DNA of 64,000 bases from Kordia periserrulae (GTDB lineage: Bacteria > Bacteroidota > Bacteroidia > Flavobacteriales > Flavobacteriaceae): assembly GCF_003054265.1 (NCBI RefSeq), contig NZ_QBKT01000003.1, positions 310,001-374,000 of the forward strand. The letters are read 5' to 3'. The position numbers and the translations under genes were made by a program. This document shows, one piece after another, positions 38,695 to 51,028 of this stretch. How positions within the stretch are numbered: the first letter of the stretch is position 1; the number at the start of each line of letters is the position of its first letter. Under the pieces are notes generated by a model. The model was not told where the DNA came from, did no database searches, and was given only the letters and a program-made list of their open reading frames with translations.

Positions 38695-38745
38695 TTGTAA
38701 ATCTCAAAAATTTATATATATTTGGTAAACCAATCTGGTCAACCA
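38695..38745 (+). promoter_or_regulatory. Promoter with two operators, upstream of alginate susC
   Basis: A -33 TTG (38695-38697), 19 bp, and a -7 TATATTTG (38717-38724) repeat the layout at 35812. Operators TGGTAAACCA (38723-38732) and TGGTCAACCA (38736-38745) overlap or follow the -7 box with the same 13-bp spacing. The two operator regions are nearly identical over about 30 bp, so one regulator should act on both. Confidence 0.8.
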
Positions 38746-38761
38746 ATTTTTTAATCAAAAG

Positions 38762-38880
38762 AAAAGGACAGGTGCACGCCTATCCTTTTTGGAATATTAC
38801 TTCTTTGGAGGGAAGTAAAATTATACATAATTACTTACAGTAACATGCATATTGCAAAAATACAAAAAAAATGCCAGTAG
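38762..38880 (+). promoter_or_regulatory. Leader element of susC: terminator-like hairpin, conserved motifs, short ORF
   Basis: The predicted transcript begins near 38730 and would carry a hairpin at 38762-38790 (AAAAGGACAGG, loop TGCACG, CCTATCCTTTTT), which resembles an intrinsic terminator inside the leader. Downstream follow GGAGGGAAGTAA (38807-38818), TTATACA (38821-38827) and a short ORF ATGCATATT... (38845-38880, 11 codons). The same elements in the same order lie ahead of the MFS transporter gene at 46238-46327. Attenuation or a structured RNA is an inference. Confidence 0.55.
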
Positions 38881-38932
38881 AAGTAAAGCTTTAAGTGATT
38901 AGTAGAATATTAACTAATTAAAAAAACTAATT

Positions 38933-41900
38933 ATGAATTTAAAAACAAAGCTTACTTGTATTGTAATGCTTCTCTTGTGCATTTCAATGTACGCTCAGGA
39001 GTCCTATCTCCTCAAGGGAAAAGTAGTTGACAAAGCAGACAACCAACCTATTCCTGGTGCAAACGTTCAGGTGGTTAAAACATCAAAAGGTACTACTACA
39101 GATTTTGATGGCAATTATCAAATTTCAGTTACAAAAGGTTATGTGTTACAATTCTCTTATGTTGGTTATGCTTCACAAACAGTTATTATTGATGCTCAAA
39201 AAACGATAAACATTACGTTAGTTGAAGATGCAAATGCTTTAGATGAAGTAGTTGTAATTGGATATGGAACACAAAAGAAAAGCAACCTTACTGGTGCAAT
39301 GTCTACATTAAATGTAGAAAAGAAAGGATTAGATAAAATAGCTGTTTCCAGATTAGACGATGCGCTTGTAGGACAAGTAGCAGGTTTAAATGTTGCAGCT
39401 ACAGAAGGTGAAGCAGGTTCAGATCCAACCATTCGTATTCGTGGTGTTGGTTCCTTAAATGGAGATTCTGCTCCTTTAATTGTAATTGACGGATTGGTAG
39501 TAGATAGCGATTTTCTTGGAAACTTAGATATGAACGAAGTACAAACGTTTGACATTCTCAAAGACGCGGCTTCTACATCAATATATGGTTCTCGTGGTGC
39601 AAATGGTGTAATCCAAATTACAACAAAACAAGGTAAAGATGGTAAAACATCATTTTCTTACAATTCTTTCTTTGGTTTTAAAGAAGCAAGACAAAGTGAC
39701 GATTACTACTTTACAGTAGCAGAAACTGTTGCTGCAGAACGTGCTGCAACAGGAACACTTTCCAACAGAACAGCTTACAAGCAATTACTTACACAAACAA
39801 CTGGTATTGACAGGGACTGGCAAGATGAGATCTTTGAAGGCGGAACTATTACAACGCATTCATTTAACGCTCGTGGTGGAAACAAAAATACAAAATTTAG
39901 TGCTTCCTTAGGTTACAATCATGATGAAGGTGTTTTACTTACAGATGATTACAAACGTTACAATGCTAGATTAAAATTAGATACAAAACTAAGCGACAAA
40001 ATAAAATTAGGGGTAAACTTTGCGCCATCTTACACAAGAAGAAGACGTTTTGATGGTTCTACACACGATATTTTAAGGCAAACGCCGTGGTTGCCTTTAT
40101 ACCACGACGCCAATTCAATTCAGTTTGTTGATACCGCAACGTATCCAAACGTTCAAATAGGTGATTATGCTATTCAAAGACACTTCGACAACTATGATTT
40201 ATTTGGTGATGGTTCTGTTTTACAAGACATCAGTAATACATCTAACACAAACCCAGCTGCAAAAGTATTAGAGCGCGATCGTAACGATTACAAATTTAAA
40301 TTAGCAGGACTTTTTTATGGTGAATATAAAATCATTGATGGTTTACGATTCAGAGCTACCTTAGGAGGTGATTACCAAAACACATTTAGAAATAGGTGGC
40401 AAGGTGTTCTATCTAACAGAAATGGTGCTTCGGCAGCAAGTTACTTTGAATCTAACGAAAACAGAATTCACACACTATCAGAAGGATATTTTACATATGA
40501 TAAAGCTTTTGGCGGACACGCGTTCAATGTAGTTCTTGGCGCATCTGCTGAAAAGTGGGAATGGCAAGGAGACAGCGCACTCGGCTCTGGTTATACATCA
40601 GATTTAGTACAAACACTAAGCGCAGCTACTGTTTTAAATGAAATTACCTCATACAAATACGAAGAAGGATTCTCCTCTTTCTTTGCAAGAGTAAACTATT
40701 CTTACGAAGACAAATACTTAGCATCTTTAAGTTTTAGACGAGATGGTAGTTCAATCTTCGGTGTAGATAACAAATACGGTAATTTCCCTTCTGCTTCGGT
40801 AGGTTGGGTAGTATCGCAAGAAGATTTCTTGAGGGAAAGCGAATTACTAAGCTCATTAAAACTAAGAGCAAGTTTTGGAGTTACTGGTAACAAAGATATT
40901 GACACAGGAAGCAATCTTACAGATTTATATCCTTCAATATCATTACTTGGAACAGACAATTACAACTCACAAGCAGCTTTTGTAGCGTTAAACATTGCAA
41001 ATCCTGAATTACAGTGGGAAAGATTAATTGAATTTAACCCAGGAATCGATTTCGGATTTTTTAACAACAAAATTACAGGTTCTGTAGATTACTACACAAG
41101 AACAAGTGATCAACTCTTATTATTCAACCCAGTTGCATCTTCAACAGGTTTTTCTGCAGCATTAGAAAACTTAGGAGAAGTGAGAAACTCAGGAATTGAA
41201 TTAGAAGTTACTTCAAGAAACGTTGCTACAGAAGATTTCAGATGGGGAACAACATTAATTGCTTCTCACAACAAAAATGAATTATTAGACTTTGCAGACT
41301 CTAACGGACAAATTCAAAATGTAGACAGTAAAAGAGCTGCAGAATGGATCAACCTCGTAGGAAATCCTATTTCATCATACTATGGTTGGGTAGTAGATCG
41401 TGACATTCCTTTAGAATTTATCAATGATCCATACCATCCAGCTGGTGGACAAGCACAAGATGTATATGTAAGAGATTTAAATGGAGACGGATTGATTGAT
41501 GATGATGACAAAACGATTCTTGGGAATCCTTATCCAGACTTAGTATGGAGTATCACAAACAATTTCAGATACAAAGATTTCGATCTAAGCTTCATGTTTC
41601 AAGGAAGTCATGGTGCCGAAATACGTAACATGGGAGACCAATACTTGTTCAACCACTTTAACAGCGGGCAAGATTTTAATACGGCTACAACACCAAATCA
41701 AGGTTTCATAAAAGAAAAAATCTTTACAGATGCCATCATTCAAGACGCAAGTTACATTGCACTTCGTAACCTAACAATTGGTTACAATCTTCCTGAAGAC
41801 ATCGCTAACAGATTTGGAGCATCATCATTCAGGCTCTATGCAACAGGTCAAAACCTGCTCTATTTTACAGCGAGTGATTACACAGGTTTCAATCCAGAAT

Positions 41901-41995
41901 CTATCAACGATACAAGTGCAACAACATATGGTTACCAACTTGCTGGTTCGCCAATATTCAGTACGATATCATTAGGGTTAAACTTACAATTTTAA
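38933..41995 (+). CDS. susC: SusC-type TonB-linked alginate oligosaccharide transporter
   Basis: This 1020-residue outer-membrane protein has a signal peptide (residues 1-21, ending MYA), a carboxypeptidase-D-regulatory-like domain (about 26-105, LKGKVVDKADNQPIPGANVQ), the SusC/RagA signature region (DEVVVIGYGTQKKSNLTGAM), a plug (about 120-235, IRIRGVGSLNGDSAPLIVID) and a long barrel ending ISLGLNLQF. With the SusD protein encoded 25 bp downstream it should bind and import alginate oligomers using TonB energy. It begins its own operon under the operators at 38723-38745. Confidence 0.94.
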   Translation: MNLKTKLTCIVMLLLCISMYAQESYLLKGKVVDKADNQPIPGANVQVVKTSKGTTTDFDGNYQISVTKGYVLQFSYVGYASQTVIIDAQKTINITLVEDANALDEVVVIGYGTQKKSNLTGAMSTLNVEKKGLDKIAVSRLDDALVGQVAGLNVAATEGEAGSDPTIRIRGVGSLNGDSAPLIVIDGLVVDSDFLGNLDMNEVQTFDILKDAASTSIYGSRGANGVIQITTKQGKDGKTSFSYNSFFGFKEARQSDDYYFTVAETVAAERAATGTLSNRTAYKQLLTQTTGIDRDWQDEIFEGGTITTHSFNARGGNKNTKFSASLGYNHDEGVLLTDDYKRYNARLKLDTKLSDKIKLGVNFAPSYTRRRRFDGSTHDILRQTPWLPLYHDANSIQFVDTATYPNVQIGDYAIQRHFDNYDLFGDGSVLQDISNTSNTNPAAKVLERDRNDYKFKLAGLFYGEYKIIDGLRFRATLGGDYQNTFRNRWQGVLSNRNGASAASYFESNENRIHTLSEGYFTYDKAFGGHAFNVVLGASAEKWEWQGDSALGSGYTSDLVQTLSAATVLNEITSYKYEEGFSSFFARVNYSYEDKYLASLSFRRDGSSIFGVDNKYGNFPSASVGWVVSQEDFLRESELLSSLKLRASFGVTGNKDIDTGSNLTDLYPSISLLGTDNYNSQAAFVALNIANPELQWERLIEFNPGIDFGFFNNKITGSVDYYTRTSDQLLLFNPVASSTGFSAALENLGEVRNSGIELEVTSRNVATEDFRWGTTLIASHNKNELLDFADSNGQIQNVDSKRAAEWINLVGNPISSYYGWVVDRDIPLEFINDPYHPAGGQAQDVYVRDLNGDGLIDDDDKTILGNPYPDLVWSITNNFRYKDFDLSFMFQGSHGAEIRNMGDQYLFNHFNSGQDFNTATTPNQGFIKEKIFTDAIIQDASYIALRNLTIGYNLPEDIANRFGASSFRLYATGQNLLYFTASDYTGFNPESINDTSATTYGYQLAGSPIFSTISLGLNLQF

Positions 41996-42020
41996 TACAC
42001 CATTCTAAAAACATTTAATT

Positions 42021-43445
42021 ATGAAACAATTAAAATATATAGGTTTTTTGATGTTAGTAGTGATAAGTCTTCAGTCTTGTCACAAAGATCTCTTAGAACC
42101 AATTCCAGAAGCAGCAGTAAGTAGCGAAAACTACTTTCTAAACGATCAACAAATTGAAACTGGTGTTATTGCTATTTACGATGCGATACAAGGAGTAAAT
42201 TCTACAAATCTAAATGACAATCGTGGTATACAACACGAATATTACGTAACTGAAATGCGTAGTGACAATACCAGAACTAAAAATCAAGAAGGTGAAGCAG
42301 CACAATTTGAAAGCTATGTAATTACACCAAACAACGGTATCGTAGAAAACTATTACAGAAGCTGTTACAGTACAATCTTTAGATCTAATTTAGTATTAGA
42401 AAACCTCGCAAATGCCTCAGAAACAATGGCGCCCATCTTTGAAGGTGAAGCAAAATTCGCAAGAGCCTACAGTTACTTTAACTTAGTACGCCTTTTTGGA
42501 GATGTTCCTCTAATTGACAGAACAATCTCGCCACAAGAAGACGAAATTGCATTCACAAGAGTGGCTACAGCTACCATTTATGATTTAATTGTGAGTGACT
42601 TAGAAACTGCCGCTGCAAATCTTAGTAATGGTGAATACACAAGAGCTTCAAAAGCTGCTGCAGAAGCACTATTAGCAAAAGTACATCTAACATTAGGAAA
42701 CTATCTTGAAGCACAAATTCTTTGCGAAAATGTAATGGGATATGGATATACTTTAGAACCAAACTTCAACGACATCTTTTACAATGAAGGAAACAACGAA
42801 GTTATTTTTGTAATTGCATACACACAAGGTATAGAAGCTGATAGTCAAGATTTTTCTGCAGAATTTATGAATGGTGTAGGACGTACCGTAGGTGTAAACT
42901 ACGTAACAGAAGATGCTGCAGCATTCTTAGATGCTAACGGAGGAAACAGAACAGAATTCTCATACCGAATCGATCCATTACAACCGACTCAAAGACAAGT
43001 TGTAAAATATTTACCAAATGGAGAAGATGGTGGCGATAACGGAAATGTATTCACGTCAGATGCAACACTTTCAGGAAACGATTGGGTAGTATTGCGCTAT
43101 GCAGATGTATTACTTATGCACACAGAAGCAATCTTAGCAGGAAATCAAGAAACAACCAATGCGGCAGCAATCGCGTCATTCCAAGCAATTCGAGACAGAG
43201 CCGGATTGACAGATGCAGTAACTTCTATCACGAAACAAGAACTGTTAGACGAAAGACGTGCTGAATTGGCATTTGAAAATCAACGACTATTTGATTTGTT
43301 ACGTTTTGGAGAAGCGCAAAGTGTACTATCTGATTTATCAGCAGCAAACAATTATAGCTTTACTTCTACAGATTTATTATTGCCAATGCCACAGCGAGAG
43401 ATAAATCTTAGTAATGGATTAATGACGCAAAATCCTGGGTATTAA
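42021..43445 (+). CDS. susD: SusD-type alginate-binding lipoprotein
   Basis: This 474-residue lipoprotein (lipobox Cys20 in SLQSCHKD) has the SusD/RagB fold: an N-terminal segment with AAVSSENYFLNDQQIE, the helical TPR-like region (EGEAKFARAYSYFNLVRLFG), and the C-terminal RagB/SusD block with VVLRYADVLLMHTEAIL and LLDERRAELAFENQRLFDLL. It caps the SusC barrel and captures oligosaccharide. The gene lies between susC (25 bp) and a PKD lipoprotein gene (14 bp). Confidence 0.94.
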   Translation: MKQLKYIGFLMLVVISLQSCHKDLLEPIPEAAVSSENYFLNDQQIETGVIAIYDAIQGVNSTNLNDNRGIQHEYYVTEMRSDNTRTKNQEGEAAQFESYVITPNNGIVENYYRSCYSTIFRSNLVLENLANASETMAPIFEGEAKFARAYSYFNLVRLFGDVPLIDRTISPQEDEIAFTRVATATIYDLIVSDLETAAANLSNGEYTRASKAAAEALLAKVHLTLGNYLEAQILCENVMGYGYTLEPNFNDIFYNEGNNEVIFVIAYTQGIEADSQDFSAEFMNGVGRTVGVNYVTEDAAAFLDANGGNRTEFSYRIDPLQPTQRQVVKYLPNGEDGGDNGNVFTSDATLSGNDWVVLRYADVLLMHTEAILAGNQETTNAAAIASFQAIRDRAGLTDAVTSITKQELLDERRAELAFENQRLFDLLRFGEAQSVLSDLSAANNYSFTSTDLLLPMPQREINLSNGLMTQNPGY

Positions 43446-43459
43446 AATTTAAAAAATAT

Positions 43460-44443
43460 ATGATGAAAAAAACACTAAAAATAATTGGTACGGCTTTCCT
43501 ACTTGTAGGAACACTCATATATCAATCATGTGATATTGACAAATTTGAACCGCTAGAAGCAAACTCAATTGCCGATGCTACACCACCAGAAGCTAACTTT
43601 ACTTTTACACAAGGACAAGGAGCAGCAGAAGAGTGGAAAGATTATACATTTGCCAATCTGTCAACAAGTGCTACCATGTACGCATGGAATTTTGGAGATG
43701 GAAACACCTCAACAGAAGTTGATGGGGCAAATACTTATCCAGGCGAAGGAACGTATACGGTAACACTTACGGCCTCTGATGCACTTGGCGTAACAAGTAC
43801 ATTTACACAAACAATAGAAGTAATAGAACCAGAAGCACCTTTAGTTGCTGATCCAGTATTAGTCAATGCAGATTTTGACAAACTTCCAAAATCATCTGGT
43901 TCAGACTGTTGTTGCGCAGGTTGGATCAATAAAGACTTGGGAGATCAAGGAGAATCTAGTTCAGGGAACGGAGGTTCTGACAATGTTGTAAAATTTGACA
44001 ACAACGAACCAGATCATGTATACCAAGAATTTGCGGTAACACCAAATGCGGATTACACAATTACAATTGTAACTTCGTTCAAAAACCTAACTGGCGGATC
44101 ATTCCCTAGCGAGCTAGAATTAAGAGTATTAGCAGGTTCAGGGTATATTGATGGGTATTCTCCAACATATTACACCAATACAGTTGATTTTCCACAAGAG
44201 GATTGGGGATACACTACAATTGCTCAAGTAGAAGATCCAGCAAACAACTTGCTGCTTGAAGTACAAACAAATCCATCTGACGACAGTTACTTCTCATACA
44301 CATACTCTTTCAATGCAGGTGCAAACGACAGCGTTGCCTTGTTCATCAGAGGTATTGGAGGAGACAGTATTGGAGACTTTAATTATACAAGTGGAGACGA
44401 AGAAATACGTGCAGATTCTGTAGTAATTACTGCGGTTAACTAA
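43460..44443 (+). CDS. PKD-domain surface lipoprotein of the alginate locus
   Basis: This 327-residue protein has a lipoprotein signal (about residues 1-24, lipobox Cys24 in YQSCDIDKFEP), a PKD domain at about 44-122 (FTFTQGQGAAEEW ... YAWNFGDGNTSTE) and a C-terminal beta-rich domain (about 130-327) that begins after a CCC cluster (SDCCCAGWINKD) and resembles a carbohydrate-binding module. It occupies the SusE/F position, so surface glycan binding is the likely role. Start is ATGATG at 43460 or 43463. The next gene begins 8 bp after its stop. Confidence 0.85.
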   Translation: MMKKTLKIIGTAFLLVGTLIYQSCDIDKFEPLEANSIADATPPEANFTFTQGQGAAEEWKDYTFANLSTSATMYAWNFGDGNTSTEVDGANTYPGEGTYTVTLTASDALGVTSTFTQTIEVIEPEAPLVADPVLVNADFDKLPKSSGSDCCCAGWINKDLGDQGESSSGNGGSDNVVKFDNNEPDHVYQEFAVTPNADYTITIVTSFKNLTGGSFPSELELRVLAGSGYIDGYSPTYYTNTVDFPQEDWGYTTIAQVEDPANNLLLEVQTNPSDDSYFSYTYSFNAGANDSVALFIRGIGGDSIGDFNYTSGDEEIRADSVVITAVN

Positions 44444-44451
44444 TACGATTT

Positions 44452-45360
44452 ATGACAATACGAACACTATTTATAGTATTTTTTGCTTTTAGTCTAAGCG
44501 TTGGATATACACAATCTAGTGATAGCAACAGTGCAGAAAACGTACAGAAAGAACGAAAGAAAAAGAAGCGAAAAAAACGTAAAAAGAAATATAAATTAGC
44601 TGATATAGATTTATCTCATTGGAAGGTGACAACTCCAGCGGGCAACGGAAAAAAGCCGCTGGAAGTGTCTCCACCCGAAATATTGGATTATGCAACAAAT
44701 GAAGACTTAAAACCATTTATGTACAATGACTCTGTACGCGGTGCTATTGTTTTTCATGCGTATCCGAGTAAAGCCACCACAGCCAATACCAAATACTCAC
44801 GTTCAGAATTGCGTGAACAAATGGTGCCTGGCGAAAACAATGTCAATTGGACCTTTAAGCAAGGTGGCATTATGAAAGGAAAATTGTCGATTGATGAAAT
44901 TTCTCGTGATGCAGATGGAAAATATCACAAAGTCATCATCATGCAAATTCATGGCCGTTTAACCAATGAACAGCGAGATTTAATTGGTCAAAAGGACAAC
45001 AATGCGCCACCAGTACTAAAAATTTATTGGCAAAATGGTAAAATTCGGGTCAAAACTAAAGTCTTAAAAAACTTGAATGCAACTCAAACAGAATTACTAC
45101 ATGAAGATGCTTGGGAAGATGACAAAGGATACACATTCAAAGAAAAAGTAGGCTTTAGAAAATTTAGACTCGAAGTAAGAGTTAGTGAAGGAAAAATGAC
45201 TGTAGTATTAAACAATAACGAATTTAAAACCTATGAAAACATTCACATGAGAAAATGGGGAATCTTTGAAAATTATTTCAAAGCAGGAAACTACTTTCAG
45301 ACACGTGATGAAGGTTCATATGCAAAAGTTCGATACTACACGTTAGAAGTAACGCATTAA
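44452..45360 (+). CDS. PL7 alginate lyase with polybasic N-terminal tract
   Basis: This 302-residue protein has a signal peptide (about 1-20, ending GYT). Residues 35-46 are twelve consecutive Lys/Arg (start RKKKKRKK), and the PL7 domain covers about 50-302. PL7 motifs are RSEL (117-120), QIH (165-167) and the C-terminal NYFKAGNYFQTRDEG block. It cuts alginate into unsaturated oligomers. There is no lipobox, so it is periplasmic or released. The basic tract could bind polyanionic alginate or membrane. It is the last gene of the susC operon, followed by a 13-bp perfect inverted repeat. Confidence 0.92.
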   Translation: MTIRTLFIVFFAFSLSVGYTQSSDSNSAENVQKERKKKKRKKRKKKYKLADIDLSHWKVTTPAGNGKKPLEVSPPEILDYATNEDLKPFMYNDSVRGAIVFHAYPSKATTANTKYSRSELREQMVPGENNVNWTFKQGGIMKGKLSIDEISRDADGKYHKVIIMQIHGRLTNEQRDLIGQKDNNAPPVLKIYWQNGKIRVKTKVLKNLNATQTELLHEDAWEDDKGYTFKEKVGFRKFRLEVRVSEGKMTVVLNNNEFKTYENIHMRKWGIFENYFKAGNYFQTRDEGSYAKVRYYTLEVTH

Positions 45361-45401
45361 TAATGAAGTTAATTTATATTTGAATAGAAGCCTTTAATTG
45401 G

Positions 45402-45432
45402 ATTTTACTGATCTATAGCAGATCAGTAAAAT
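45402..45432. other. Perfect 13-bp inverted repeat after the PL7 gene
   Basis: ATTTTACTGATCT (45402-45414) and AGATCAGTAAAAT (45420-45432) form a perfect stem with a 5-base loop, 41 bp after the lyase stop. It lacks a T-run, so it could be a bidirectional or weak terminator, an RNA-stabilising hairpin or a protein-binding palindrome. Confidence 0.6.
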
Positions 45433-45500
45433 TCATGTAAAGATTTCACAGAATGTTAACGTATATTCACTATTAATTTTTAAATTTAACATACAAAATC

Positions 45501-45510
45501 TGGTTAACCA
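45501..45510. promoter_or_regulatory. Single TGGTTAACCA operator, upstream of gntR
   Basis: TGGTTAACCA ends 17 bp before the ATG of the GntR gene. It shares the TGGTNNACCA pattern with the four sites at 35840-35862 and 38723-38745, and predicts autoregulation. No clear -7 TAnnTTTG box was found beside it. Confidence 0.65.
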
Positions 45511-45527
45511 ATTACAGTTGCTTACGT

Positions 45528-46229
45528 ATGAAATTAGATATCTTAACAAAAACAGAAACACTTGACATTCAAAAAACGATTATCTCAAAAATCAGAGACC
45601 TAATCAATGCCAAAAATTTGGAGCCAGGTGACAAACTTCCCTCAGAACGTATGTTATCTGAAAAGTTTGAAGTAACACGTAGCAATGTTAGAGAAGCAAT
45701 TCAAAAACTTGAATTCTACGGTTTATTAAAATCAATTCCACAAAGCGGAACCTTTGTAGCAAACATTGGAGTTACAGCAATGAATGGAATGATAGAAGAT
45801 ATCTTACGTTTAGAAGAACCAGATTTTAAATCGTTGGTAGAAACTAGAATTTTGTTAGAATTAAAAACAGCACGACTAGCGGCTTTGCGAAGAACTGACG
45901 ACGATCTTTTAAAAATGAAAGAAGCCTTAGATGCTTATACAGAAAAAGTACTCAATGGTGAAGATGCAGTACAAGAAGATTTACTATTTCATTTAGCTAT
46001 TGCCAAAGCTAGTGGAAACAGTACGATGAATACATTTATGCTAATCATTACACCAGAAATTATCACAAACTTTGAAAAATATCACGTGTGTGATAAAGAC
46101 TTAGCTCAGTCTGGAATCATTGAACATCAAAGTATCTTTGATGCAATAAAAGATCAAAAACCACAATTGGCAAAACAAAAAATGAAAGAACACTTTAGCG
46201 TATTGTATCAATACTGTTACAATATCTAA
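45528..46229 (+). CDS. GntR/FadR-family repressor of the alginate locus
   Basis: This 233-residue protein has an N-terminal winged helix-turn-helix (about 15-80, LPSERMLSEKFEVTRSNVRE) and an FCD ligand-binding domain (about 95-225) with metal-site residues in LLFHLAIAKASGN and EHQSIFDAI. Such proteins bind uronate-derived metabolites. KDG or DEH would be the expected inducer here. Palindromes TGGTNNACCA ahead of this gene and at the PL7 and susC promoters are its proposed targets. The MFS gene follows after a 186-bp leader. Confidence 0.9.
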   Translation: MKLDILTKTETLDIQKTIISKIRDLINAKNLEPGDKLPSERMLSEKFEVTRSNVREAIQKLEFYGLLKSIPQSGTFVANIGVTAMNGMIEDILRLEEPDFKSLVETRILLELKTARLAALRRTDDDLLKMKEALDAYTEKVLNGEDAVQEDLLFHLAIAKASGNSTMNTFMLIITPEIITNFEKYHVCDKDLAQSGIIEHQSIFDAIKDQKPQLAKQKMKEHFSVLYQYCYNI

Positions 46230-46237
46230 AAAAACAC

Positions 46238-46327
46238 CAGTTTTGAAAATGCACGAATTCAAAACTGAAAAATACGGAGGGAAGTAATTTTATACAGAAA
46301 AACGTCATGCACATTTCTTCTCGTTAA
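46238..46327 (+). promoter_or_regulatory. Leader element of the MFS transporter gene, matching the susC leader
   Basis: A perfect 10-bp stem CAGTTTTGAA/TTCAAAACTG (46238-46267) has TGCACG in its loop. Then come GGAGGGAAGTAA (46276-46287), TTATACA (46290-46296) and a short ORF ATGCACATTTCTTCTCGTTAA (46307-46327, Met-His-Ile start). Order and the 2-bp gap between the two central motifs equal those in the susC leader at 38762-38880. It begins 9 bp after the gntR stop, so it is probably transcribed with that gene. Confidence 0.55.
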
Positions 46328-46415: not shown

Positions 46416-47687
46416 ATGAAAATAAGAGGTCTCAGATGGTGGATAATAGGCTTAGTATGTCTTGCTACCATTATTAACTATATTGATAGATCTGCATTAG
46501 GAATAATGTGGCCAGAAATGAGTAAAGACTTAGGACTTACAAAACAAGACTACTCCTGGATAATCAACATCTTTACCATTACGTATGCGGCGGGTAAATT
46601 TATCTCAGGAAAAGTATATGACAAAGTAGGTACAAAAATTGGTTTTGTACTATCTATCTTTTTCTGGTCGTTGGCTTCTGTATTACACTTCTTTGCAAAA
46701 GGAGCAGCATCACTTGGAATTTTTAGAGGATTACTAGGTGTAGCCGAAGCAGGAAATTGGCCAGGAGCAGTAAAAAACAATGCAGAATGGTTTCCAATAA
46801 AAGAACGTGGCTTGGCACAAGGAATTTTTAATTCTGGAGCAGCAATAGGATCCATTGTAGCTGCGCCAGCGGTCTCTGAACTATTTGGAGCCTACGGTTG
46901 GCGAGTAACATTTATCATTATTGGTGTATTAGGTTTTCTATGGATAATTCCATGGTTAATCTTCAATAAAACTCAACCAAAAAACCACCCTTGGATTACC
47001 GAAGAAGAAAAAGAACATATAGAATCTGGACGATTGGAAAGTCGTAAAAATGTAGAAGATGACAAAAGCCTAACAGTCATACAAATTCTTTCCAAAAAAG
47101 AATCATGGGGCGTAATTGCAGCGCGATTCTTTATCGAACCTATTTGGTGGCTATTTGTATTTTGGATGCCTATATACCTATTTGATGAATTCGGATTCGA
47201 TGTTAAAAAAATTGGACTATACGCATGGTTTCCATATATAGGAGCTATGATTGGTAGTCTAGCTGGCGGTTGGTATGTAAAACAATTAATGAACAAAACA
47301 ACACTTGACAAAGCTCGAAAAAAAGTGATTGCCATCGGCGGAATCATTATTTTCTTAGGAATCATTGCAGCGATACTCTTTGCAGATACACCAGAAAAAT
47401 TTGTCTCCTTTGTATTTATCGTATTATTTGGATTCCAATTTTCAATCAGTAATATCCAAACAATTCCGAGCGACTTGCTAAATGGAAAATCAGTAGGGAC
47501 TTTAGCTGGTTTGGGGGGAAGTATTGGTGCTGTTTCAGTAATAATAATGAACTGGTTAATTCCAATTATTACCAAAGATTCTTACACGCCAGCATTTATC
47601 ATACTCGCAATACTAGCGCCGTTGGCAGTATTGTCAATTTACCTTTTAATTAAAGAAATAAAACCTATAGAAAATAACATAAACTAA
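46416..47687 (+). CDS. MFS transporter, hexuronate/DEH type
   Basis: This 423-residue protein has twelve membrane segments and begins RWWIIGLVCLATIINYIDRS, the N-terminal segment of the anion:cation symporter (ExuT-like) MFS group. A cytoplasmic loop after segment six is charged. It should move unsaturated uronate or DEH from the periplasm into the cytoplasm. The order MFS, DEH reductase, KDG kinase, KDPG aldolase is that of known flavobacterial alginate operons. It starts 186 bp after gntR and 18 bp before the SDR gene. Confidence 0.9.
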   Translation: MKIRGLRWWIIGLVCLATIINYIDRSALGIMWPEMSKDLGLTKQDYSWIINIFTITYAAGKFISGKVYDKVGTKIGFVLSIFFWSLASVLHFFAKGAASLGIFRGLLGVAEAGNWPGAVKNNAEWFPIKERGLAQGIFNSGAAIGSIVAAPAVSELFGAYGWRVTFIIIGVLGFLWIIPWLIFNKTQPKNHPWITEEEKEHIESGRLESRKNVEDDKSLTVIQILSKKESWGVIAARFFIEPIWWLFVFWMPIYLFDEFGFDVKKIGLYAWFPYIGAMIGSLAGGWYVKQLMNKTTLDKARKKVIAIGGIIIFLGIIAAILFADTPEKFVSFVFIVLFGFQFSISNIQTIPSDLLNGKSVGTLAGLGGSIGAVSVIIMNWLIPIITKDSYTPAFIILAILAPLAVLSIYLLIKEIKPIENNIN

Positions 47688-49534: not shown

Positions 49535-50203
49535 ATGGCAACATTTACACGGATAGCAGTCGCACAAACTATGAATCAAACGGGATTAGTACCACTTTTT
49601 TATCATCATGATATTCAAATTGCTAAACAAGTTGTAAAAGCTTGTTACGATGGTGGCGCTCGTTTGTTAGAATTTACTGCACGGGGTGATTTTGCTCACG
49701 AAGTTTTTGGACAACTTAGTTTATATGTTCGAGAAGAACTTCCAGAAATGATACTAGGTGTTGGTTCAATAACCGATGCAGCTTCGGCTTCGTTGTATAT
49801 GTCGCTTGGTGCGAATTTTATTGTAACACCTGTGTTGCGAGAAGATATTGCGGTAGTTTGTAATAGACGAAAAGTATTATGGTCGCCAGGTTGCGGTTCA
49901 TTGACAGAAATTGCCAAAGCAGAAGAATTGGGTTGTGAAATTGTGAAACTATTTCCAGGAAGTATGTATGGTCCTGAATTTGTAAAAGCAATTAAAGGAC
50001 CACAACCGTGGACAAGTATTATGCCCACAGGAGGCGTATCTCCTACACAAGAAAATTTAGAAGCTTGGTTTGCTGCTGGTGTCATGTGTGTGGGAATGGG
50101 TTCCAAGTTGATTCATAAAAAAGAAAACGGAGAATTTAATCTTATTAAAATAAAAAGTACAATACAAAACATGCTAAAAATCATAAAAGAATTAAAGACA
50201 TGA
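49535..50203 (+). CDS. kdgA: KDPG aldolase
   Basis: This 222-residue class I aldolase has the Schiff-base Lys138 in CEIVKLFPGSMYGPEF, the Glu in LLEFTARGD (E46) and the closing block MPTGGVSPTQENLEAW. It splits KDPG into pyruvate and glyceraldehyde-3-phosphate, the end of alginate breakdown. Its stop overlaps the start of the LacI gene by 4 bp (ATGA), so the two are co-translated. Confidence 0.93.
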   Translation: MATFTRIAVAQTMNQTGLVPLFYHHDIQIAKQVVKACYDGGARLLEFTARGDFAHEVFGQLSLYVREELPEMILGVGSITDAASASLYMSLGANFIVTPVLREDIAVVCNRRKVLWSPGCGSLTEIAKAEELGCEIVKLFPGSMYGPEFVKAIKGPQPWTSIMPTGGVSPTQENLEAWFAAGVMCVGMGSKLIHKKENGEFNLIKIKSTIQNMLKIIKELKT

Positions 50204-50733
50204 GCCTGTCTCAATCTTCATCAATTACATTAAAAGAATTATCAAAACTTTCTGGCTTTTCAATTTCTACGGTTTCCAAAGCACTAAATAATAAATTTGA
50301 TATTAGTAAAGATACGCGAAAAGCAATACAGAAAATAGCCTTAAAATATAATTATGTACCTCATAATTATGCAGTTGCTTTACGCAAAAAACAAACCAAA
50401 ACAGTAGCGATTATCATTCCGCAAATTAATAAAAGTATCTATGGTTTGTTTGTGTATCATATTGAAAAAGTAGCTTCAAAATTTGGCTATCGTATTATTT
50501 TGTTTCAATCTTTTGAAGAAACCAAACGTGAAAAAGATTGTTTAAAAAGTATTCTTGACGGGAGTGTGGATGGTGTAATTATATCCTCGGCAAAACCTTC
50601 TCATGTATATTATAAAAAAATAAAAAATCAATTTCCCATAGAGCATATATGCCTATCAAAAGAAGTGCAAGAGCAACAATTAAAAGACTTATCAATTCAT
50701 ACGTTTTCAAAATTACTTTCTAATTTCGATTAA
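50200..50733 (+). pseudogene. LacI-family regulator, truncated at the island edge
   Basis: This 177-codon frame begins with a complete LacI helix-turn-helix (ITLKELSKLSGFSISTVSKA, then YNYVPHNYAVALRKK hinge) and continues into the first half of the periplasmic-binding-like domain (TKTVAIIIPQINKSIYGLFV, SVDGVIISSAK). It ends after residue 177, where full proteins have about 335-345, and the last 20 residues do not look like the family. The stop is 47 bp before the start of the 40-bp direct repeat at 50781. It could still bind DNA but would lack most effector contacts and dimer interface. Confidence 0.8.
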
Positions 50734-50741
50734 TTTATCAA

Positions 50742-50820
50742 AGTGAAACTGGCTTTTTAATAAAGCGACCTGCTAGATTTTGGTTCCAGAGGTCGCCAGT
50801 TCGAACCCGGTCTTTCACCC
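50742..50820 (+). pseudogene. Decayed tRNA-His copy (island right repeat)
   Basis: Positions 50781-50820 equal 29033-29072 of tRNA-His with one mismatch, covering part of the anticodon arm, T arm and 3' acceptor strand. The upstream part (GTGAAACTGGC ... AAAGCGACC) only weakly follows the 5' half. D and anticodon stems cannot form, so it is not a functional tRNA. It matches an attachment-site remnant or a dead tandem tRNA. Confidence 0.75.
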
Positions 50821-50826
50821 AAAAGC

Positions 50827-50854
50827 AAACCTCTCAATTTCGAGAGGTTTTTTT
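50827..50854 (+). terminator. Terminator after the decayed tRNA-His copy
   Basis: AAACCTCTC pairs with GAGAGGTTT around AATTTC and ends in seven T. It differs in sequence from the terminator after the intact tRNA-His, so this remnant has its own history. It may now end the alginate operon. Confidence 0.85.
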
Positions 50855-50917
50855 GTGCAATTGTTTTTTAGATATATGTAATTAAGGGGAGAAGTTCACG
50901 CTGAGTGAAGACGAAGT

Positions 50918-51028
50918 GAACCCAGTCTTTCACCCTTTATAAGTCGCTGAATTTCAGCGACTTTTTTTGTTTTTAAGATGGTTTTGTTCTTCTGAAAAAA
51001 TGTTAAAAACGGTACTCCAATTTTTTAT
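50918..51028 (+). repeat. Second tRNA-His 3' remnant with homologous flank and terminator
   Basis: GAACCCAGTCTTTCACCC and the following TTTATAAGTCGCT match 29055-29085. The terminator AAGTCGCTGA/TCAGCGACTT (50941-50968) differs from the first in its upper stem by compensating changes. GGTACTCCAATTTTTT at 51011 matches 29148 at the same 76-bp distance. So about 110 bp of tRNA-His end plus flank is duplicated here, marking the likely outer edge of the island. The 50855-50917 interval shows nothing else. Confidence 0.75.

Follow-up and report, generated by a model that had tools for sequence, protein, structure and literature searches.

The nearest known kind of RNA to the one considered here is the DonS-type antisense RNA of Bacteroides. 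In the consulted part of PMC7366714, the DonS family comprises short antisense RNAs of 78 to 128 nucleotides (nt) encoded divergently to the susC homologue of a polysaccharide utilization locus (PUL), a canonical sigma-ABfr promoter goes with 52% of the cis-antisense candidates in Bacteroides thetaiotaomicron, and TAnnTTTG is the Bacteroidota -7 box, with no -33 motif identified in Flavobacterium johnsoniae. The FopS small RNAs (sRNAs) of the FopS/GibS type in B. thetaiotaomicron act in trans and bind the susC mRNAs of PULs; the excerpt of PMC11697453 that we used lists 14 members, of which nine are intergenic, four are antisense, and one derives from a 3' untranslated region (UTR), with a single-stranded 5' seed at the start codon. 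For alginate use in Zobellia galactanivorans, the consulted section of a review (PMC8286568) describes AusR, a GntR repressor that keeps most alginate genes down until oligosaccharides appear. Here we analyze a 64,000-nt stretch of the 4.73-Mb Kordia periserrulae genome (NZ_QBKT01000003.1:310001-374000, called the window), in which the leaders of two importer genes of an alginate locus, the outer-membrane susC gene and the inner-membrane major facilitator superfamily (MFS) gene, share a pair of motifs. This motif pair very probably represents an sRNA gene on the minus strand of the susC leader and its target in the MFS leader.

Comparative evidence supports a predicted sRNA of ~94 nt within the susC 5'UTR, on the minus strand, with its own TAnnTTTG box and an intrinsic terminator. 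It also supports the prediction that the terminator loop and the CCCUCC sequence of this RNA match sites between gntR and the MFS gene in order and spacing and that the two places change together. As in the DonS family, the predicted RNA is antisense to the 5' region of susC in a PUL (susC was the first recognized gene in 71/76 loci of a hairpin-only set, among the matches listed) and has a putative promoter of its own (antisense TAnnTTTG in 32 of the 44 related loci with both motif copies intact) and a predicted length of 84 to 107 nt. The likeness lies in position, promoter, and predicted length, and the Kordia-type sRNA differs from DonS in belonging to the Flavobacteriaceae, in its alginate locus, and in a conserved trans site in the MFS leader that coevolves with its loops. 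Compared with FopS, the sRNA gene here is a single antisense copy, and its predicted contact is made by a hairpin loop far upstream of the start codon. The regulator and operon logic are likely the same as for AusR of Z. galactanivorans; AusR is a transcription-level repressor, and the RNA layer proposed here would be additional.

A sequence-only reading of the window had listed the elements common to the two leaders, and we confirmed them: TGCACG in a hairpin loop (38773-38778 and 46250-46255), GGAGGGAAGTAA (at 38807 and 46276), 2 nt, TTATACA, and ATG-CAT/CAC-ATT. None of 400 dinucleotide-shuffled leader pairs reached the score of 15 of the ungapped leader match (best shuffle, 14), and the match is thus beyond chance. 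Exact GGAGGGAAGTAANNTTATACA matches in the Kordia genome were limited to these two leaders; three further places had two or three mismatches, and the one with open reading frames (ORFs) listed (L003; L and G numbers are our own labels) lies inside an ORF. Conservation beyond the genus is restricted to TGCACG/A in a hairpin loop plus GRAGGG, and the TTATACA spacing was found in 0/44 intact loci, all of which come from other genera.

The pattern TGCACG-N10-40-GGAGGGAAGTNA occurred at 40 places in 31 of 397 genomes of the family; the reversed control pattern gave 0 among the matches listed. Thirty-seven places lie ahead of a susC homologue or an MFS gene, one (G135) precedes gntR owing to the absence of susC at that locus, and two (L037 and L039) have no window-type gene after the motif and look like chance. 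Relatives of the GntR protein were found in 102/397 genomes (E values up to 1e-50), and the best 80 of 119 listed matches were fetched as larger regions, genomes already seen being left out, a set that leans to the nearer GntR relatives. Six of the 80 had no usable susC or MFS leader (L117, L122, L123, L146, L156, and L160; no MFS gene lies within the stretch in L122, with TGCTCG, or L123, with TGCACA), which left 74 Flavobacteriaceae loci. Both copies were intact in 44 of these and neither in 30, and in no locus was only one intact. The MFS site was called at a stem score of at least 5, and the call was repeated without the stem criterion. Borderline rows counted as neither were L134 (TGCACG loop, GGAAGG, and no MFS site), L147 (TGCTCG, GAAGGG, and no MFS site), L098 (TGCGCG), and L158, L159, and L168 (GGAGGG kept, loop lost).

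The loop was identical in both leaders in all 44 intact loci (32 with TGCACG, 10 with TGCACA, and 1 each with TGTACG and TACACG), and the core was identical in 39 (31 with GGAGGG, 6 with GAAGGG, and 2 with AGAGGG), GAAGGG being present in both leaders in 6/6 cases. Independent pairs of loci on well-supported branches all agreed in presence (16/16 on the concatenated tree, 6/6 on the GntR tree, 14/14 on the MFS tree, and 17/17 on the SusC tree) and in loop variant (9/9, 6/6, 8/8, and 11/11, respectively), and ~7 to 8 of 9 to 10 pairs agreed in core variant on three trees. This concordance of presence and of loop changes indicates that each site responds to changes in the other or that both follow a common partner. 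Compensatory change between sRNA loop and target, the mark of a trans-acting base-pairing sRNA, is thus seen in four loop types and in 6 to 11 independent agreeing pairs, depending on the tree. G135 (L046, 300-1060) amounts to a natural experiment: the stretch from the sRNA gene to gntR lacks susC, susD, and the lyase gene, yet the sRNA gene, the MFS target, and both operators are retained.

The strand on which each copy is structured was read from wobble pairs, since an A.C on one strand is a G.U on the other. Read on the minus strand, the susC hairpins held 45 G.U against 2 A.C (39 rows); the terminator hairpin SL3 by itself gave 34 against 1 on the 39 aligned rows and 37 against 2 on all 44, and SL2, the hairpin preceding it, gave 3 against 1 when all 44 predicted sRNAs were counted. 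In the plus-strand reading, the MFS hairpin held 49 G.U against 18 A.C, a smaller contrast than in the susC copy. These counts indicate that the susC copy is structured as a minus-strand RNA and the MFS copy as a plus-strand RNA. The 39-row alignment, also used for the consensus fold, consists of 38 of the 44 predicted sRNAs plus that of the window, with L096, L114, L136, L137, L142, and L154 left out. In the susC copy, the plus-strand T-run after the stem is mostly 2 to 5 nt and the A-run before it, which is the minus-strand U-tract, is mostly 6 to 9 nt; the A-run was the longer one in 71/76 named loci (among the matches listed). As for the MFS stem, 84.7% of the cells were paired versus 59.7% in shuffled data, and the covariation score was 0.684 versus 0.228 (reached in 0/500 shuffles; maximum for slid versions, 0.302). 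Without the stem criterion, 45 MFS sites averaged 7.7 of 9 pairs, versus 3.7 at random positions.

In most loci the minus strand is predicted to fold as SL1, SL2, and SL3 followed by the U-tract, and the antisense fold was lower in energy than the sense fold in 34/44. The covariance model R1 had one match in the Kordia genome, on the minus strand at the place of the predicted sRNA. When 395 genomes of the phylum were searched, five genomes matched at E values of <1e-13 and two more at ~1e-5, all in the Flavobacteriaceae, and five weak matches (1.1e-4 to 9.6e-4) fell outside the family. The antisense TAnnTTTG stands 24 to 44 nt beyond the core on the minus strand; 500 shuffles gave the box in a mean of 3.3 and a maximum of 9 loci, and in the counted stretch of the intact loci the sense box and two reversed motifs were each found in 0/44. 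The antisense box was enriched in intact over not-intact loci (Fisher P = 0.001). The hairpin-only set, drawn from named genomes, held at least 80 loci and partly overlaps the first set; 76 gave rows, and the four others were two non-Flavobacteria records and two loci in which the hairpin lies near the end of the locus. The 56 loci with a recognized core, 24 already seen and 32 new to the analysis, were scored for the box. Among the matches listed, the antisense box was present in 48/56 and the sense box in 0/56, and the new stretches gave 28/32 and 0/32, respectively.

The CGUGCA and CCCUCC sequences of the predicted sRNA are complementary to UGCACG and GGAGGG of the gntR-MFS RNA, their order fits antiparallel pairing, and the spacing between loop and core is alike (22 to 41 nt in the MFS target and 26 to 34 nt in the sRNA). 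Predicted openness was 0.93 to 0.94 for both loops and 0.82 for CCCUYC. The longest perfect complement averaged 10.0 nt for own pairs, 8.7 nt for sampled pairs from different genomes, and 7.5 nt for the rest of the MFS leader. Complements of the loop elsewhere in the locus had differing positions among the 12 variant loci viewed. A pyrimidine-rich stretch downstream is often the pairing partner of GRAGGG in predicted folds, and another way for the sRNA to act could therefore be to open this structure. Since a sense TAnnTTTG, as would mark a promoter of the MFS gene itself, was found in 0/44 MFS leaders, the target is probably read through from gntR.

The sequence-only reading had placed this element at the RNA level, with free stems and a kept loop, ahead of the outer- and inner-membrane importers and outside the described riboswitches. 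All of this was borne out: the MFS stems covary, and at the Rfam gathering score the window matched only a tRNA elsewhere and the loci of three relatives matched nothing, searches of the leaders at E values up to 10 giving only matches far below gathering scores. The same reading held cis-acting control to be plausible, which would make both copies plus-strand leader elements, either a riboswitch or a protein-binding site. We consider this improbable, even though both copies stand ahead of importer genes with loop and core in common and the MFS stems do covary on the plus strand. The minus-strand wobble bias of the susC hairpins means that structure is not kept on the mRNA strand in both leaders; the antisense promoter box and the longer antisense U-tract at the susC copy speak against a cis leader as well, and the matching single-base loop changes point to a dedicated partner. 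Two further features proposed in that reading are not conserved in the relatives. A pseudoknot through TGCA is not kept (complement of the first 4 nt of the loop within 60 nt downstream in 15/44 susC and 4/44 MFS leaders), and the Met-His-Ile upstream ORF with its CATGCANATT start occurs in 0/44 in either leader, with no conserved start codon or short ORF for leader-peptide control. Direct kissing between the two leaders through the palindromic TGCA was considered and rejected, since the two loops share one sequence instead of complementing each other and the TACACG variant (L118) is not palindromic.

A third partner, an sRNA or RNA-binding protein encoded separately and coevolving with both copies as its targets, would likewise produce common loops and joint loss. 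This is very unlikely: in the same-genus genomes G077 and G297, searched with exact patterns, no third place alike had both complements within 30 nt, the recurring one being the antisense of the MFS leader, and such a partner would not account for the promoter, the terminator, and the wobble pattern on the minus strand. A DonS-like RNA acting only in cis on susC, with a separate element at the MFS gene, draws support from the not-intact loci, as 14/33 of these keep the hairpin with an A-run of at least 6 nt, 11/33 keep the antisense box, and R1 still matches one of them (G352; E value, 1.2e-5). We regard it as quite unlikely, given that the susC loop and GRAGGG were intact in the 74 loci only where the MFS site was present, and the loop was then identical. 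A dispersed DNA-level repeat or operator would fit the near-palindromic stem of the susC copy and is extremely improbable in view of the few copies per genome, their fixed places, the unrelated MFS stems, and the wobble-biased pairing.

Several observations weigh against an sRNA gene paired with an MFS target. The sRNA gene, with its start and transcript, is a prediction from sequence, and the promoter evidence consists of the -7 box. An exact antisense TAnnTTTG is missing from the counted stretch in 12 of the 44 intact loci: by eye, ten carry a box with one mismatch and L137 a box with two, and in L096 an exact box falls just beyond the counted stretch. Of the not-intact loci, 11/33 do have the box. 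SL1 is absent from the consensus fold, where that part is poorly aligned, L137 folds weakly, and the U-tract of the window itself is interrupted by one C (TTTTCTTTT). The intactness criteria were set after the table had been viewed; TGTACG and TACACG each come from a single genome; and the core differs by one letter in 5/44 loci (at the first base in four and at the last in one), with 0.9 of 3 independent pairs agreeing in core variant on the GntR tree. At the target, GRAGGG has a predicted openness of 0.46 in the MFS leader, the site lies 109 to 230 nt upstream of the MFS start, so that a simple block of translation start is not obvious, and a conserved terminator was not found in the MFS leader (3/44).

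Plasmid antisense RNAs of the kissing-loop type (ColE1 RNAI and CopA) recognize their targets by loop-loop contact between complementary hairpins; here, by comparison, the second hairpin is at a remote gene and has an unrelated stem, and the match is confined to the loop and the second patch. The sRNA would bind the MFS mRNA through such a kissing contact together with a CCCUCC:GGAGGG duplex. Without alginate, the GntR regulator would keep the susC promoter off, the sRNA would be made, and the MFS gene would be held down. Upon induction of susC by alginate, the sRNA would be removed both by transcription running through its gene and by pairing to the complementary susC 5'UTR; the MFS gene would thereby be released, and the outer and inner importers would rise together. 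That the regulation is repression rather than activation is a guess, one that we somewhat favor. We likewise lean toward the fuller proposal that one susC-antisense RNA acts in trans on the MFS mRNA by loop-loop contact and a second patch, that the susC 5'UTR serves as its antidote, and that the RNA balances transport across two membranes as a layer that spans marine Flavobacteriaceae and has repeatedly been lost as one unit.

The alginate locus of the window comprises genes for PL7 lyases, a cupin that we take to be KdgF-like, SusC, SusD, a PKD protein, an FCD-type GntR regulator, the MFS importer, a short-chain dehydrogenase/reductase, a PfkB-type kinase, and 2-keto-3-deoxy-6-phosphogluconate (KDPG) aldolase. 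The putative TGGTnnACCA operator of the GntR regulator overlaps the likewise putative susC promoter. The coordinates of the features are collected in Table 1.

Table 1. Features of the susC and MFS leaders and neighboring genes in the window (positions counted from its first letter)
Feature	Position	Strand	Basis
Predicted sRNA, antisense to susC 5'UTR; ends approximate	38757..38850	-	Antisense promoter box, fold and terminator in relatives; covariance model R1
Putative -7 promoter box of sRNA (TATTTTTG on minus strand)	38855..38862	-	Antisense TAnnTTTG in 32/44 relatives
SL1, predicted 5' hairpin of sRNA	38824..38849	-	Fold of window sequence; 5' hairpin in most individual folds
SL2, predicted hairpin TTACTTC/GAAGTAA presenting CCCUCC (complement of GGAGGGAAGTAA)	38797..38818	-	Folds, consensus fold
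SL3, predicted terminator hairpin; apical loop CGUGCA (38778-38773), U-tract 38765-38757	38762..38789	-	Wobble pairs, A-run length
Putative trans target 1: hairpin with loop UGCACG (46250-46255), between gntR and MFS gene	46238..46267	+	Covariation
Putative trans target 2: GGAGGG, complementary to CCCUCC of SL2	46276..46281	+	Comparison of loci
MFS inner-membrane importer, target gene	46416..47687	+	Pfam
susC, TonB-dependent outer-membrane importer	38933..41995	+	Pfam Plug, CarbopepD_reg_2, TonB barrel; SusD next
gntR, FCD-type GntR, AusR-like	45528..46229	+	Pfam
TATATTTG, putative -7 box, susC operon promoter	38717..38724	+	Sequence
Double TGGTnnACCA, putative operator for GntR regulator	38723..38745	+	Of 44 intact loci, present near susC in all and near gntR in 36

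Some loci depart from the usual arrangement. L116 (G373) has two susC genes with GGAGGGAAGTAA in both susC leaders, the second of which has lost the TGCACG hairpin, and L146 (G036) has a second susC gene with a TGCACA hairpin after gntR, the usual place of the MFS gene. Among the not-intact loci (e.g., L092, L097, L113, and L120), 14/33 keep a GGA-type hairpin with an A-run of at least 6 nt ahead of susC, the loop or GGAGGG having drifted; in such loci the RNA perhaps lives on as a pure cis-antisense RNA. Within the window, the KDPG aldolase gene is followed (50200-50733) by a short LacI-family ORF of 177 amino acids that contains a helix-turn-helix domain and just the beginning of the ligand domain. 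In the intergenic region after it (50734-50970), an 18-nt sequence (94% alike between copies) and a terminator-like hairpin each occur twice, ~115 nt apart; by eye these repeats resemble tRNA 3' ends, and ARAGORN found no tRNA there.

In the literature that we searched, we found no published account of a susC antisense RNA with a further conserved target at an inner-membrane importer and no described trans-acting PUL sRNA in marine Flavobacteriaceae, which are known alginate degraders. The new part is the coevolving trans site at the inner-membrane importer. Sequence data alone can rarely prove an sRNA-target pair; here the case is a strong one, built on matching changes, on joint losses, and on the strand evidence of the wobble pairs. 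The result is a directly testable model for the matching of outer- and inner-membrane polysaccharide uptake in genera with cultured strains (Kordia and Zobellia), in which one sRNA may keep both importers in step.

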